Positions 410 through 28,720 of a stretch of DNA of 64,000 nucleotides are shown piece by piece; position 1 is the stretch's first letter; every line of letters starts with the position of its first letter. The position numbers and the translations under genes are program-made. This DNA is from Actinomycetota bacterium (GTDB taxonomy: Bacteria; Actinomycetota; Actinomycetes; Actinomycetales; Microbacteriaceae): contig JAIUPK010000006.1 of NCBI GenBank assembly GCA_020160915.1, positions 62,001 through 126,000 on the forward strand. Direction: 5' to 3'. The notes beneath the pieces were generated by a model. It saw only the letters and a list, made by a program, of their open reading frames with translations, ran no database searches and was not told where the DNA came from.

Positions 410-1387
410 ATGCGCCCCACCGTGACCGACCTGCTTGCCACCGCCCACGTCGTGAGTCTGCCGCTGGTCTCGCGGTTCCGGGGAATCGACCGGCGCGAAG
501 CCATGCTCATCGAGGGCCCCGAGGGGTGGACCGAGTTCTCGCCGTTCACCGAGTACGGCGACGCCGAGGCATCCGCCTGGCTCGCCGCCGCCATCGACTT
601 CGGCTGGAACCCGACGCCTCCTGCGCTGCGCGACACGATCCGCGTGAACGCGACCATGCCCGCCGTGACCGCCGACGAGTTGCCGGCCGTGCTGGCCAGG
701 TTCCCCGGGTGTCGCACGGTGAAGATCAAGGTGGCCGAGCCGGGCCAGAGCCTCGCGGATGACACGGCGCGCGTCGCCGCAGTGCGGGCAGCGCTGGGTG
801 CCGAGGGTCGCATCCGCGTCGACGCGAACGGCGGCTGGAACATGGACGAGGCGGAGCACGCCATCCACGCCTTCGCTGAGTTCGACCTCGAATATGTCGA
901 GCAGCCGTGTGCGACGGTCGACGAACTCGCGCAGGTGCGGCGGCGGGTCAAGTACATGGGAATCCCGATCGCCGCCGACGAGAGCGTGCGCAAGGCGGAG
1001 GACCCGCTGGCGGTCGCGCGCGCCGGGGCCGCCGACATCCTGGTGGTCAAGGCCCAGCCGCTCGGCGGCATCTCTAAGGCGCTCGCGCTCATCGCCGAGG
1101 CCGGGCTGCCGGTCGTCGTCTCGAGCGCCCTCGACACGTCGGTGGGCATCTCGATGGGCCTGCACCTGGCGGCCGCCATCCCCGAGCTGGATTTCGACTG
1201 CGGGCTCGCCACCGCGGCCCTGCTGGCCGCCGACGTGACGGATGCCCCGCTCACCCCGCGCGAAGGCGAGCTGCCCGTGCGCCGCGTGGTGCCCACAGCC
1301 GAACTACTGGCCCGCCACGCCGCCACTCAGGATCGCACGCTGTGGTGGCGCGCGCGCCTCGAGCGCTGCTACCAGCTGGTTGAGTAG
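410..1387 (+). CDS. menC: o-Succinylbenzoate synthase
   Basis: This is an enolase-superfamily dehydratase that converts SHCHC to o-succinylbenzoate in cytoplasmic menaquinone synthesis. Visible marks are the KIK catalytic lysine motif near residue 105, the metal ligands in DANGGW, VEQP and ADES, and the KAQPLGG lysine region. At 325 residues it matches the short actinobacterial MenC form. CAGACT lies 6 nt before the ATG, so the mRNA is probably leaderless. The last residues and the stop (V-E-TAG) are written by the dispersed repeat that begins at 1378, so the C-terminus has been set by repeat insertion. menB lies 27 kb away in the same window. Confidence 0.93.
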   Translation: MRPTVTDLLATAHVVSLPLVSRFRGIDRREAMLIEGPEGWTEFSPFTEYGDAEASAWLAAAIDFGWNPTPPALRDTIRVNATMPAVTADELPAVLARFPGCRTVKIKVAEPGQSLADDTARVAAVRAALGAEGRIRVDANGGWNMDEAEHAIHAFAEFDLEYVEQPCATVDELAQVRRRVKYMGIPIAADESVRKAEDPLAVARAGAADILVVKAQPLGGISKALALIAEAGLPVVVSSALDTSVGISMGLHLAAAIPELDFDCGLATAALLAADVTDAPLTPREGELPVRRVVPTAELLARHAATQDRTLWWRARLERCYQLVE

Positions 1388-1497
1388 CGGCCACGCCGCG
1401 TATCGAAACCGCCCCCAGGCGGGTTAAGTAGCGGCCACGCCGCGTATCGAAACCGCCCCCAGCGGGTTGAGTAGCGGCTGCGCCGCGTATCGAAACC
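1378..1497. repeat. Three tandem copies of the GGTTGAGTA palindromic repeat
   Basis: Copies lie at 1378-1410, 1422-1454 and 1465-1497, all in the same orientation and separated by 10-11 nt GCCCCCAG-type spacers. Each is GGTTGAGTA (GGTTAAGTA in copy 2), a GCGGC / GCCGC stem with a 3-nt loop (CAC, CAC, TGC), then GTATCGAAACC. The first copy supplies the menC stop codon. The third abuts the GIY-YIG stop codon with no gap. Confidence 0.95.
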
Positions 1498-1782
1498 CTA
1501 CCGGCGGAAGTCCTTCCGACTCAGCTCCGGCAGTCGACCGTACGCCCCGGCGATCAGTGCCTCCCGCTTCTTGCGAGACCACCGTTGGATCTGTTTCTCC
1601 CGCTCGTACGCGTCGTCGATGCGCTCGAACTCCTGGGCGAAAACCAGCTCGATCGGCAGTCGCGTGCTGGTGTAGTTGCAACCCGCTCCAGTCGAGTGCT
1701 GCCACATCCGATTGTCTAGATCGCGGGTACTGCCCACGTAGTACGAGCCGTCGGAGCAGCGCAGCATGTAGACGTAGGGCAT
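1498..1782 (-). CDS. GIY-YIG family endonuclease, YhbQ/UPF0213-like
   Basis: This 94-residue protein is essentially a single GIY-YIG nuclease domain. The two-strand signature reads YVYM (residues 3-6) and YYVGST (14-19), followed by the helix arginine near residue 25 and the metal-binding glutamate in REKQIQRW (E62). The C-terminus is basic. No DNA-binding domain is attached, as usual for the small YhbQ-like group, whose role is not settled. CACACT sits 6 nt before the ATG, so the gene appears to carry its own leaderless promoter. Three dispersed repeats lie directly at its 3' end and two inverted copies lie upstream, between menC and ccsB. I infer that nuclease and repeats may form one mobile unit. 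Confidence 0.88.
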   Translation of the reverse strand: MPYVYMLRCSDGSYYVGSTRDLDNRMWQHSTGAGCNYTSTRLPIELVFAQEFERIDDAYEREKQIQRWSRKKREALIAGAYGRLPELSRKDFRR

Positions 1783-1843
1783 GCACGGAGTGTGCGCTAT
1801 GGCAGTCGTCGGTGGTTCGGCCCGGGGCGGAGTTGTGGATGCG

Positions 1844-1921
1844 GGTTTCGATACGTCCGCTGCGCGGACTACTCAACCAGCCGGAGGCGGTTTCGATACG
1901 CGCCTTTGGCGCTACTCAACC
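1844..1921. repeat. Two copies of the palindromic repeat, inverted relative to 1378-1497
   Basis: The copies lie at 1844-1878 and 1889-1921 and read GGTTTCGATAC-stem-loop-stem-TACTCAACC, the reverse complement of the first cluster. Their stems differ (GTCCGC with loop TGC and GCGGAC; GCGCC with loop TTT and GGCGC) but remain fully self-complementary. The second copy ends 8 nt before the ccsB stop codon. Confidence 0.95.
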
Positions 1922-1929
1922 AGCCGGGA

Positions 1930-2886
1930 CTACAGCCCGCTGTACGCGTGCAGCCCCTTGAAGAACAGGTTCACGATCGTGAAGTTGAAGAGCACGGCGC
2001 TGAAGCCGATGATCGCGAGCCAGGCGCTCCGCGAGCCGCGCCATCCTCGGGTCGCCCTCGCGTGGATGTAGCCGGCGAAGATCGTCCAGATGATGAAGGT
2101 CCAGACCTCCTTCGTGTCCCAGCCCCAGTAGCGGCCCCACGCGCGTGATGCCCAGATGGCGCCCGCGATGAGCGTGAAGGTCCAGAGCACGAACCCGACG
2201 ACGATGAGCCGGTAGGCCATGTTCTCGAGCTTCTCCGGCTCGGGCAGCGTGTCGAGGAACTTCGCCTTCGTCAGCTTGCCGACCGCGCGACGCTCCTTGA
2301 GCAGCTGCACGATCGAGAGCCCTGCGCCGAGAGCGAAGAACCCGGTTCCCAGGGTCGCAACGAACACGTGAATGACCAGCCACGCCGACTGCAGTGCCGG
2401 CGGAAGCGGCACGACGTCGACGTAGAAGTTGACTGTCGCAACTCCGAGGGCGATCAGCACGAAGCCGGAGATGAACGCGCCGAGGAACCGCAGGTCCTGC
2501 CAGAACTGCACAGCGAGGAACACCCCGACGATGATCGCGGTCGCCGTGAGCGTGAACTCGAACATGTTGGCCCACGGCACGCGGCCGGCGGCAAGTCCGC
2601 GCAGGATCGCGGCCGTGACGTGCAGAACCCAGGCGATGACGGTGAGCGCCATGGCCGCGCGCAGGTAGCGGGGGGTGCTGCGCCCGACGGATGCCGGGGC
2701 ATCCGTCTTCTCCAGGAGGGCGGTGGTTCCGGATGCCGCAACCGCCTTGCTCCCGACGGTCGCCGCCACGGGCGCGCCAGCCGACCGCCGCGCAAGATCG
2801 ACGGTGAAGAGGATGAAGGCCAGTGTGTAGACCGCCATGGCCGAGTACAGGGCCAGACGCATGTACATCACGAGAGTCTCGGTCAC
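1930..2886 (-). CDS. ccsB: Cytochrome c biogenesis protein CcsB (haem handling and ligation)
   Basis: This is the multi-spanning partner of ResB in system II cytochrome c maturation. Together they deliver haem across the membrane and attach it to apocytochrome CXXCH sites. The 318-residue protein is largely hydrophobic, and its C-terminal half carries the tryptophan-rich WWD-type segment around SRAWGRYWGWDTKEVW typical of the CcsA/CcsB (CytC_asm) family. It starts with GTG 9 nt after the resB stop and is the last gene of the minus-strand operon from 6490. The 3' end is followed by the repeat and GIY-YIG block. Confidence 0.93.
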   Translation of the reverse strand: MTETLVMYMRLALYSAMAVYTLAFILFTVDLARRSAGAPVAATVGSKAVAASGTTALLEKTDAPASVGRSTPRYLRAAMALTVIAWVLHVTAAILRGLAAGRVPWANMFEFTLTATAIIVGVFLAVQFWQDLRFLGAFISGFVLIALGVATVNFYVDVVPLPPALQSAWLVIHVFVATLGTGFFALGAGLSIVQLLKERRAVGKLTKAKFLDTLPEPEKLENMAYRLIVVGFVLWTFTLIAGAIWASRAWGRYWGWDTKEVWTFIIWTIFAGYIHARATRGWRGSRSAWLAIIGFSAVLFNFTIVNLFFKGLHAYSGL

Positions 2887-7089: not shown

Positions 7090-8418
7090 GTGACCGAACG
7101 CACCCTGATCAAGAACCTGCTCGCCGCAACCGACGGACCCGTCTCCGTGTCGGGGTGGGTCGATACGGTGCGCGACCAGAAGAAGGTGCAGTTCGTCGTG
7201 CTCCGCGACGAGTCCGGTGCTGTGCAGTTGGTGAACCCTCGTGCATCCGACGCCGACGGCAACACCGTCGCCGACGAACTCAGTGACACCATCTCGGGTC
7301 TCGCCCAGGGCACCTTCCTCACCGCGACCGGTGAGCTCAAGCACGATGAGCGCGTGAAGCTCGGCGGGGTGGAGATCAAGCTCGAGGCACTCGAGATCGC
7401 CGCCGCAGCCAACCCCGAGACGCCCATCGCCGACGACACCGGCGTCGACAAGCGCATGGACTGGCGCTTCCTCGACCTGCGCCAGCCGAAGAACAACCTG
7501 ATCTTCCGCATCCAGACCACCCTCGAGCACGCCTGGCGCACCTACTGGGTCGAGCACGACTTCATCGAGCTGCACACCCCCAAGCTCATGGCCAGCGCGA
7601 GCGAATCCAAGGCCGAGCTGTTCGAGGTCGAGTACTTCGACACCAAGGCCTACCTGTCGCAGAGCCCGCAGTTCTTCAAGCAGATGGCCCAGCCGGCCGG
7701 CTTCGGCAAGATCTTCGAGGTCGGCCCCGCGTTCCGCGCCGACCCGAGCTTCACGAGCCGCCACGCCACTGAGTTCACCAGCGTCGACAGCGAGATCAGC
7801 TGGATCGACTCGCACGAAGACGTCATGAAGCTCCACGAGGAGCTGCTGGTGGCCGGCTTCGCGGCGGTCAAGGCGAAGCACGGCGACGAGATCGAAGCCC
7901 TGTTCGGGGTCGAGGTGACCGTACCCACGGTGCCGTTCCCGCGCATCCCGCTCGCCGAAGCGAAGCGCATCGTGGCCGAGCGCGGCTACGAGGTGCCCCG
8001 GCACGACGACGACATGGACCCGGAGGGCGAGCGCCAGATCGCCGCCTACGTGAAGGAGACCTTCGGCCACGAGTTCGTGTTCCTCACGGACTACGCCTCC
8101 AGCATCCGGCCGTTCTACCACATGAGGCACGCGGATGACGCGTCGCTGACCAACAGCTACGACCTCATCTTCAACGGAGTCGAGATCTCCACCGGAGCAC
8201 AGCGCGAGCACCGCATCGAGATCCTGGAGGCACAGGCTCGCGACAAGGGGCTCGACCCCGAGGAGCTCGCCTTCTACCTCGACTTCTTCCGCTACGGCGT
8301 TCCCCCGCACGGTGGCTTCGGCATGGGGCTCAGCCGAGTGCTGATGCTCATGCTGCACCTGCCGAACCTGCGCGAGACCACGTATCTGTTCCGTGGACCT
8401 ACCCGCCTGCTGCCGTAG
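7090..8418 (+). CDS. aspS: Aspartate--tRNA ligase, short archaeal-type
   Basis: The enzyme charges tRNA(Asp), and possibly tRNA(Asn), with aspartate. At 442 residues it is the short archaeal/eukaryotic-type AspRS. It has an N-terminal OB fold (residues about 1-105) and a class II core but lacks the large GAD insertion of the roughly 590-residue bacterial enzyme. Motif 2 shows as FRADPSFTSRHATEF and motif 3 as GFGMGLSRVLMLML. The leaderless start is GTG, with TAAACT (7078-7083) 6 nt upstream and overlapping the toxin stop. Whether the enzyme discriminates Asp from Asn tRNA cannot be read from sequence alone. Confidence 0.92.
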   Translation: MTERTLIKNLLAATDGPVSVSGWVDTVRDQKKVQFVVLRDESGAVQLVNPRASDADGNTVADELSDTISGLAQGTFLTATGELKHDERVKLGGVEIKLEALEIAAAANPETPIADDTGVDKRMDWRFLDLRQPKNNLIFRIQTTLEHAWRTYWVEHDFIELHTPKLMASASESKAELFEVEYFDTKAYLSQSPQFFKQMAQPAGFGKIFEVGPAFRADPSFTSRHATEFTSVDSEISWIDSHEDVMKLHEELLVAGFAAVKAKHGDEIEALFGVEVTVPTVPFPRIPLAEAKRIVAERGYEVPRHDDDMDPEGERQIAAYVKETFGHEFVFLTDYASSIRPFYHMRHADDASLTNSYDLIFNGVEISTGAQREHRIEILEAQARDKGLDPEELAFYLDFFRYGVPPHGGFGMGLSRVLMLMLHLPNLRETTYLFRGPTRLLP

Positions 8419-10315: not shown

Positions 10316-10354
10316 GTAGCGGGTTGAGTAGCGACGAAGTCGCGTATCGAAACC
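10310..10354. repeat. Half copy plus full copy of the palindromic repeat
   Basis: An 11-nt half copy (10310-10320) that contains the HAD gene stop is followed by a complete copy at 10322-10354 with a GCGAC / GTCGC stem and loop GAA. Confidence 0.93.
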
Positions 10355-22012: not shown

Positions 22013-22087
22013 GGTTTCGATACGCGCTTCGCGCTACTCAACCGGCCCAGCGGCTTGGTCTCGATACGCGCTTCGCGCTACTCAACC
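22013..22087. repeat. Two copies of the palindromic repeat
   Basis: The copies lie at 22013-22043 and 22057-22087, same orientation, both with GCGC / GCGC stems and loop TTC. The second has GGTCTCGATAC in place of GGTTTCGATAC. They end 5 nt before the -10 (TAGTTT, 22093-22098) of the MarR gene, so the repeat occupies its -35 region. Confidence 0.95.
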
Positions 22088-28687: not shown

Positions 28688-28720
28688 GGTTTCGATACGC
28701 GGCTGCGCCGCTACTCAACC
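28688..28720. repeat. Palindromic repeat copy between divergent genes
   Basis: It reads GGTTTCGATAC-GCGGC-TGC-GCCGC-TACTCAACC. This copy lies upstream of two divergent genes, so the repeat family is not confined to gene 3' ends. Confidence 0.95.

Follow-up and report, generated by a model that had tools for sequence, protein, structure and literature searches.

A GIY-YIG nuclease gene enclosed by inverted palindromic repeats as a candidate REP-like mobile unit

REPs are common repeats in bacterial chromosomes. The locus described here raises the question of whether a small nuclease gene that stands between clusters of one such palindrome is the enzyme that serves the repeat, a cargo that the repeat carries, or an ordinary neighbour. 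The locus lies in a window of 64,000 nucleotides, the whole stretch of DNA that was analysed, from an actinobacterium of the family Microbacteriaceae. A first account made from the letters of the window (the sequence-only reading) had likened the locus to an autonomous element accompanied by short non-autonomous copies, as with REP sequences and RAYT transposases, with a different nuclease fold.

The window cassette and its nuclease

The sequence-only reading described a 94-aa GIY-YIG gene between inverted repeat clusters, with three copies downstream that touch the stop codon and two upstream. This is borne out by the ORF, by its PF01541 match and by the coordinates of the repeat, here called R1 (Table 1). 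Also confirmed is the occurrence of the repeat elsewhere in the window without the gene, at three places and as one further variant. The layout of R1 is GGTT-TCGA-TAC-[stem-loop-stem]-TA-CTC-AACC. A pattern search of the window returned eight matches at seven distinct places where the chance expectation was 0 (100 shuffles), and the 2.93-Mb genome contains 125 exact copies compared with 0 for the reversed control pattern. At 22013-22087, an R1 copy lies in tandem with the GGTC/AACC copy, and the latter is a hybrid between two repeat families.

The nuclease gene had also been credited with its own promoter. This part of the description did not hold, as a scan covering the sigma-70 type found no sigma-70-like site in 1350-1960. 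Rfam produced no match at the gathering score (best RF02954, E = 0.17), and NCBIfam produced none at a curated cut-off. In Pfam, the window protein matched GIY-YIG and T5orf172, the latter just above its cut-off.

Table 1. Coordinates of the cassette, its host genes and the dispersed repeat copies in the window.
Feature	Position	Strand	Remark
GIY-YIG nuclease ORF, 94 aa	1498..1782	-	GIY-YIG is the sole domain; PF01541, E = 4.5e-18
R1 palindrome, distal downstream copy	1378..1410	-	its GGTTGAGTAG end provides the final codons of menC and its TAG stop
R1 palindrome, middle downstream copy, one mismatch	1422..1454	-	
R1 palindrome, proximal downstream copy	1465..1497	-	abuts the nuclease stop codon, which begins at 1498
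R1 palindrome, proximal upstream copy	1844..1878	+	orientation opposite to the downstream copies
R1 palindrome, distal upstream copy	1889..1921	+	orientation opposite to the downstream copies
Dispersed R1 copy without gene	10322..10354	-	
Dispersed R1 copy without gene	22013..22043	+	
R1-like copy, GGTC left and AACC right end	22057..22087	+	tandem with the R1 copy at 22013..22043
Dispersed R1 copy without gene	28688..28720	+	
menC-like enolase-superfamily gene, junction host gene	410..1387	+	name menC from the earlier reading of the sequence
ccsB-like cytochrome c assembly gene, junction host gene	1930..2886	-	name ccsB from the earlier reading

Slx1 is a nuclease of branched DNA, and it is among the structural neighbours of the window protein. 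The predicted structure is a GIY-YIG fold (pLDDT = 88.8) for which UPF0213 is the first neighbour (PDB: 1zg2, 1ywl), followed by Slx1. Residues Y5, Y15, R25, H29 and E62 are invariant in a 28-row alignment, and the choice of which tyrosines of the window protein are catalytic is presumptive. Of ten close pairs, nine were kept for dN/dS, which ranged from 0 to 0.18; the pair L031-L042 was dropped because its two ORFs are out of register. Since the expected catalytic residues are invariant and dN/dS lies in this range, proteins of the nuclease family are probably active. A GIY-YIG motif with an arginine and a glutamate is described in the part of the GIY-YIG superfamily survey that was available (PMC1564403), and that part does not mention such repeats.

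In domain, expected catalytic Y, R and E, and matching predicted fold, the window protein agrees with the UPF0213/COG2827 proteins (YazA, BH0048) and Slx1. The settings of the genes differ. While yazA of B. subtilis lies between trmNF and rsmI without inverted flanks, the REP-flanked genes are patchy in occurrence and found at varied loci. GIY-YIG homing endonucleases such as I-TevI are also small GIY-YIG nucleases tied to mobility; however, the window gene is free-standing, intergenic and bounded by dispersed hairpins, and neither Pfam nor the locus revealed an intron, an intein, a NUMOD or another DNA-binding domain for the 94-aa ORF.

Inverted repeats beside the nuclease family

The family set consisted of 118 homologues from one actinobacterial family, 38 of them with flanks of up to 1.5 kb and 80 in regions of 10–19 kb. 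The 17 weakest or fragmentary search rows were left out, and so was a second match in L069, which duplicates the gene of L063. A flank score was obtained by aligning the 400 bp upstream of a gene to the reverse complement of the 400 bp downstream, with a threshold of at least 16, and simple ORF calls of at least 90 aa from the same regions served as controls. In this comparison of the nuclease with other genes, which the sequence-only reading had suggested, 86/118 nuclease genes reached the threshold as opposed to 6/803 other ORFs and 17/2747 random positions. Inverted flanking at both ends is about 100 times commoner at the nuclease than at other ORFs of the same regions, although these counts and the associated Fisher P overstate independence because the nuclease genes are related by descent. 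The nuclease was the best-scoring gene of its region in 65 of the 80 regions, and 32/118 family genes scored below 16. By genus, at least one flanked gene was present in 29 of 33 genera, with the majority of genes flanked in 26. In the wider phylum, a relative was found in 32/296 genomes, and 9 of 29 loci were flanked (one of these, L275, is the already counted L098), some loci presenting TTCG..CTC repeats with ATTC/GAAT- or ATTGC-like outer stems. With only 9/29 of these loci flanked, the association belongs to some clades and not to the whole protein family.

The flanking repeats vary between nuclease clades, and many share a grammar: an outer 4-bp stem, TCGA, 3–30 nt (the inner hairpin in R1), CTC and the complementary outer stem. 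As this grammar was derived from the very loci that were later counted, the weight rests on the control counts and not on the fit; the grammar was present at both ends of 78/118 nuclease genes, 11/895 control ORFs and 0/590 shuffled flank pairs. Many different outer stems recur (GGTC, GGTT, CCCT, GATC, GATT, GGCT), therefore it is the pairing that is conserved rather than the letters. The TCGA side is turned towards the gene in 63 of 86 nearest downstream copies and 72 of 91 nearest upstream copies. Between repeat and gene there is a median gap of 79.5 bp on the upstream side and of 22 bp on the downstream side, where 24 of 78 repeats begin no more than 10 bp from the stop codon. When five individual R1 copies were folded as single-stranded DNA, their stability was unremarkable (z from -0.4 to -1.6). 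The structural evidence rests instead on covariation, since 12/385 variable inner pairs were broken in the first 100 listed copies of R1 from the window's own genome, compared with 31% when partners were shuffled.

A tree of the 118 proteins, built from few columns and with many weak forks, was used to follow repeat type. The outer-stem label (93 labelled proteins) changed 21 times on this tree, while shuffled labels changed 47.5 times on average and never fewer than 40 times in 300 shuffles. For the inner tag (86 labelled proteins) there were 16 changes versus 32 shuffled. Nucleases of one clade tend to be accompanied by one repeat family. Fourteen genomes have at least two labelled nuclease genes, and in ten of these all labels differ. 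The own genome provides an example, as its second nuclease gene (G000:C1:431074-431343, L040) stands between inverted clusters of a different repeat, GTCTCGACGGGCTCGACC, which occurs there in 10 exact copies, five at its gene, and in 67 copies at up to two mismatches, with none for the control. The repeat that is expanded in a genome is often the type beside its nuclease. The own genome has 125 copies of R1 and 0 of a variant (GAGACG..CTCCTC), whereas G034 and G139 have 0 copies of R1 and, respectively, 166 and 126 of the variant. Exceptions are G113, in which the variant has 0 exact copies, and G067, in which it has 1, though their genes are labelled with it.

Gene presence, copy number and junction states

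The nuclease was found in 93/398 genomes, and 64 of the same 398 contain at least one R1 copy. Five or more R1 copies are present in 29/93 genomes with the gene compared with 10/305 without it (odds ratio 13, kinship not corrected for), so that in the examined genomes repeat number is related to the presence of the gene. R1 copies total 883 in gene-carrying genomes and 235 in gene-less ones.

The ten repeat-rich genomes without the gene are the main counter-evidence and limit the claim. A 28-sequence profile at E ≤ 1 found no GIY-YIG relative of this kind in them. In G362 (L303-L332), where the nuclease was not found, there are 93 R1 copies as singles and close pairs, with 54/423 inner pairs unpaired versus the 12/385 of the own genome. 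The R1 copies of the ten genomes are read here as likely relics left after gene loss; a second enzyme may also have been at work. REPtron gene loss that leaves repeats behind is reported for E. coli strains in the available part of PMC3733652. Stem decay as a general rule in gene-less genomes was considered and rejected; although the copies of G362 are decayed, ten listed copies of G086 are mostly well paired by eye.

The menC-ccsB junction was compared between 27 genomes of the genus, all of which have ccsB. The nuclease lies beside ccsB in two, the own genome and G007. Fourteen of the junctions were read in detail; in the other 13, menC lies outside the fetched locus (three) or about 0.6–1 kb away (ten), and none of these 13 loci has a nuclease match. 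In G012, G023, G014, G002 and G021, the menC and ccsB matches end 0–20 bp apart and the junction is free of repeats. At the junction of G004, an exact and a degenerate copy of R1 form an inverted pair and the gene is lacking; the G004 nuclease sits elsewhere. Other junctions that were read contain 32–368 bp of other sequence. Three states therefore alternate at one junction: empty, a repeat pair alone, and the full cassette, the latter in both orientations. The gene at this locus without flanking repeats was not the usual state among the relatives examined. By eye, no target-site duplication was seen in the junctions read, for which the relatives are too diverged. In the G007 junction (L248), the nuclease lies between R1 copies in the opposite orientation to the window, and the cassette either flipped between its inverted repeats or arrived twice. 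The junction of G013 (L252), which in other genomes is empty or contains R1, is filled by a long hairpin of another kind (TTTTCAGGCTGTAGGC..GCCTACAGCCTGAAAA).

Within the own genome, R1 is found singly, in tandem and in inverted pairs. Its first 100 listed copies include 25 close neighbours, 15 tandem and 10 inverted, and in all ten inverted pairs the TCGA sides point towards each other across a spacer of 8–18 bp, which is also their orientation in the cassette. In their sequence arrangement, these pairs look like cassettes without the gene. At G000:C1:511379-511921 (L013 1501-2043), an R1 pair in cassette orientation, its copies 477 bp apart, encloses an interrupted ORF that we take to be a GNAT-like acetyltransferase. 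Here a repeat pair may have captured a different gene.

We favor, with good confidence, the interpretation of the cassette as a REP-like mobile unit in which a free-standing GIY-YIG nuclease of UPF0213/Slx1-like fold is the dedicated enzyme in place of a RAYT. The best surviving alternative is that the nuclease is a passenger or homing gene, either inserting into repeat clusters spread by other machinery or becoming trapped in them, the repeats being landing pads. REPs are indeed reported as landing sites of some insertion sequences (PMC1525189, in the part available). The persistence of R1 in the ten gene-less genomes and the R1 pair around the interrupted GNAT-like ORF also fit this alternative. 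A passenger is nevertheless unlikely given that empty menC-ccsB junctions have no repeat to land on, that repeat type tracks nuclease clade, and that two nucleases in one genome mostly have different repeats. In addition, only 6/803 other ORFs of the same regions are similarly enclosed, and a RAYT as the other machinery was not found in 37 same-family genomes.

Still less probable is a host-serving role, in which a domesticated structure-specific enzyme trims or resolves REP hairpins, or has its expression tuned by them, and stays close to this substrate but does not spread it. The proximity of the fold to UPF0213 and Slx1 and the purifying selection (dN/dS 0–0.18) would suit such an enzyme. 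In Caulobacter crescentus, three COG2827 copies, one with an SOS box, were proposed as possible repair genes (PMC1839093, in the part available). A host function is harder to reconcile with a presence as patchy as 93/398 genomes, with different loci within one genus and multiple paralogues, and with a matched-repeat copy number that rises with the gene.

RAYT systems, CGTC-REPs and a proposed mechanism

A search for RAYTs matters because the other strand of R1, GGTTGA-GTAG-stem-loop-stem, carries GTAG before the stem as GTAG-REPs do, albeit beside the variable stem and not terminal. With RAYT/REP as the known precedent, a RAYT elsewhere in the genome could move R1 and the nuclease gene would be irrelevant. 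However, PF01797 was absent from all 37 same-family genomes, the own genome included, among 60 searched. Matches were limited to 2/60 genomes, both of other families, while 5/14 control genomes matched. Furthermore, the GAGACG/CTCC variant and the second own-genome repeat are without GTAG. A RAYT as the driver of R1 was thus rejected for the sampled genomes and is considered very improbable.

With the REP-like unit and its GIY-YIG enzyme as the preferred reading, a comparison may be made to REP/RAYT (TnpA-REP) systems and REPINs. The enzyme gene is bracketed by inverted short palindromes, and there are many free copies and inverted pairs (125 exact copies; 10 pairs among the first 100 listed). 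Repeat type is matched to enzyme type, with G113, G067 and G738 as exceptions, copies can supply TAG stops, and stems are compensated. The differences lie in the enzyme, which is GIY-YIG rather than a Y1 HUH transposase, PF01797 not being found in the genome, and in the shared constant motif, which is TCGA/CTC here, with GTAG beside the stem in R1 and absent from the sister repeats. The proposal of an autonomous element with non-autonomous copies, similar to REP/RAYT but with another fold, is strongly supported by flanking in 29/33 genera, by repeats that follow the clade, by the link of copy number to the gene, by the empty and gene-less states at one junction, and by the RAYT result. As a whole, the sequence-only reading is partly supported; it stands with respect to the REP/RAYT-like layout and is limited by the ten R1-rich genomes in which the gene is not detectable.

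A set of alphaproteobacterial-type nuclease loci provides a second group. The best 80 of 330 loci were taken, nearly all from Rhizobiales (L241 and L243 are MAGs not named Rhizobiales). A flank score of at least 16 was observed for 51/79 genes (L175 was unscorable) compared with 4/725 ORFs and 10/2647 random positions; the remaining 28/79 scored below 16. Of the two tagged REP superfamilies of Di Nocera 2013 (PMC3733652), the available part gives an associated enzyme for the GTAG class only, reports no association of CGTC repeats with transposase genes, and names no GIY-YIG association. A descriptor based on the criteria of that paper required a CGTC, TGTC or CCTC tag, an 8-9 bp stem starting with A (one mismatch), a 4-5 nt loop and a CCA tail. 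By this descriptor, a CGTC-REP is located within 400 bp of 78/80 nuclease genes on at least one side. The repeats on both sides of the gene fit the class at 51/80 loci versus 4/811 control ORFs, and 47 of the 51 loci with a high flank score have CGTC-REPs on both sides. R1 differs in that it has no CGTC tag and ends in GGTT..AACC.

A CCGG-type pattern (3 mismatches) was present in 19–54 copies in eight genomes whose fetched gene has CCGG-type flanks. Four genomes with another flank type had 2, 1, 0 and 75 copies. The 75 copies of this CGTC type, which belong to G738, count against strict matching; such genomes may hold further genes. An ordinary gene with chance or ordinary 3'-end REPs has next to no probability, for although gene ends are frequent REP sites (PMC3733652, in the part available), it is contradicted by inverted flanking at both ends (86/118 versus 6/803), by the recurrence of the pattern in another phylum, and by the grammar and CGTC-REP counts.

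With somewhat less confidence than is placed in the window cassette itself, it is probable that there is a second REP class, large and ancient, that has free-standing GIY-YIG nucleases as its dedicated enzymes and comprises the actinobacterial TCGA/CTC palindromes and the orphan alphaproteobacterial CGTC-REPs. Hairpin dispersal would then have arisen independently of RAYTs and may be as widespread. In the proposed mechanism, the nuclease would recognise the repeat hairpin when it is single-stranded or extruded. In Actinobacteria, the feature recognised would be the constant, unpaired TCGA/CTC internal loop flanked on either side by a base-paired stem; in Alphaproteobacteria, it would be the CGTC tag together with the stem and the CCA tail. 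On the simplest model, the nuclease would cleave the hairpin by a structure-specific nick at a paired repeat. By repair or re-joining, either the repeat alone or the whole repeat-gene-repeat unit would then be copied to another intergenic position, and the free copies would be non-autonomous derivatives on which the nuclease acts in trans.

No report joining GIY-YIG genes with REPs was found in the titles and abstract openings of open-licence PubMed Central, from which subscription papers and preprints could differ, and the available part of the REP paper PMC12306157 holds nothing on GIY-YIG. The proposal provides a concrete small candidate enzyme with a matched substrate for CGTC-REPs and for the palindromes of one actinobacterial family, and the question is thereby reduced to a cleavage assay. 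If true, the spread of hairpins has drawn on a second nuclease fold that is not homologous to the first, and short genes that carry the label "excinuclease ABC subunit C" or "GIY-YIG nuclease family protein" would gain a different biological meaning.

A further 12 loci, part of 47 plasmid records with a match, were counted without control ORFs. Four are not flanked: B. subtilis yazA, Cupriavidus, Acidiphilium and S. paeninsulae. The S. parapaucimobilis locus (L150) is flanked by eye only. Seven of the 12 are flanked by inverted palindromes according to the score, all of them alphaproteobacterial homologues on plasmids, from Novosphingobium, Sphingobium (two), Shinella, Sinorhizobium and Methylobacterium (two). 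In Sinorhizobium psoraleae (L167, approximately 8000-8291), the nuclease lies within a very long inverted repeat with an alignment score of 185, longer than a REP pair. Three viral contigs (L161-L163) encode short partial matches to the Sinorhizobium nuclease.
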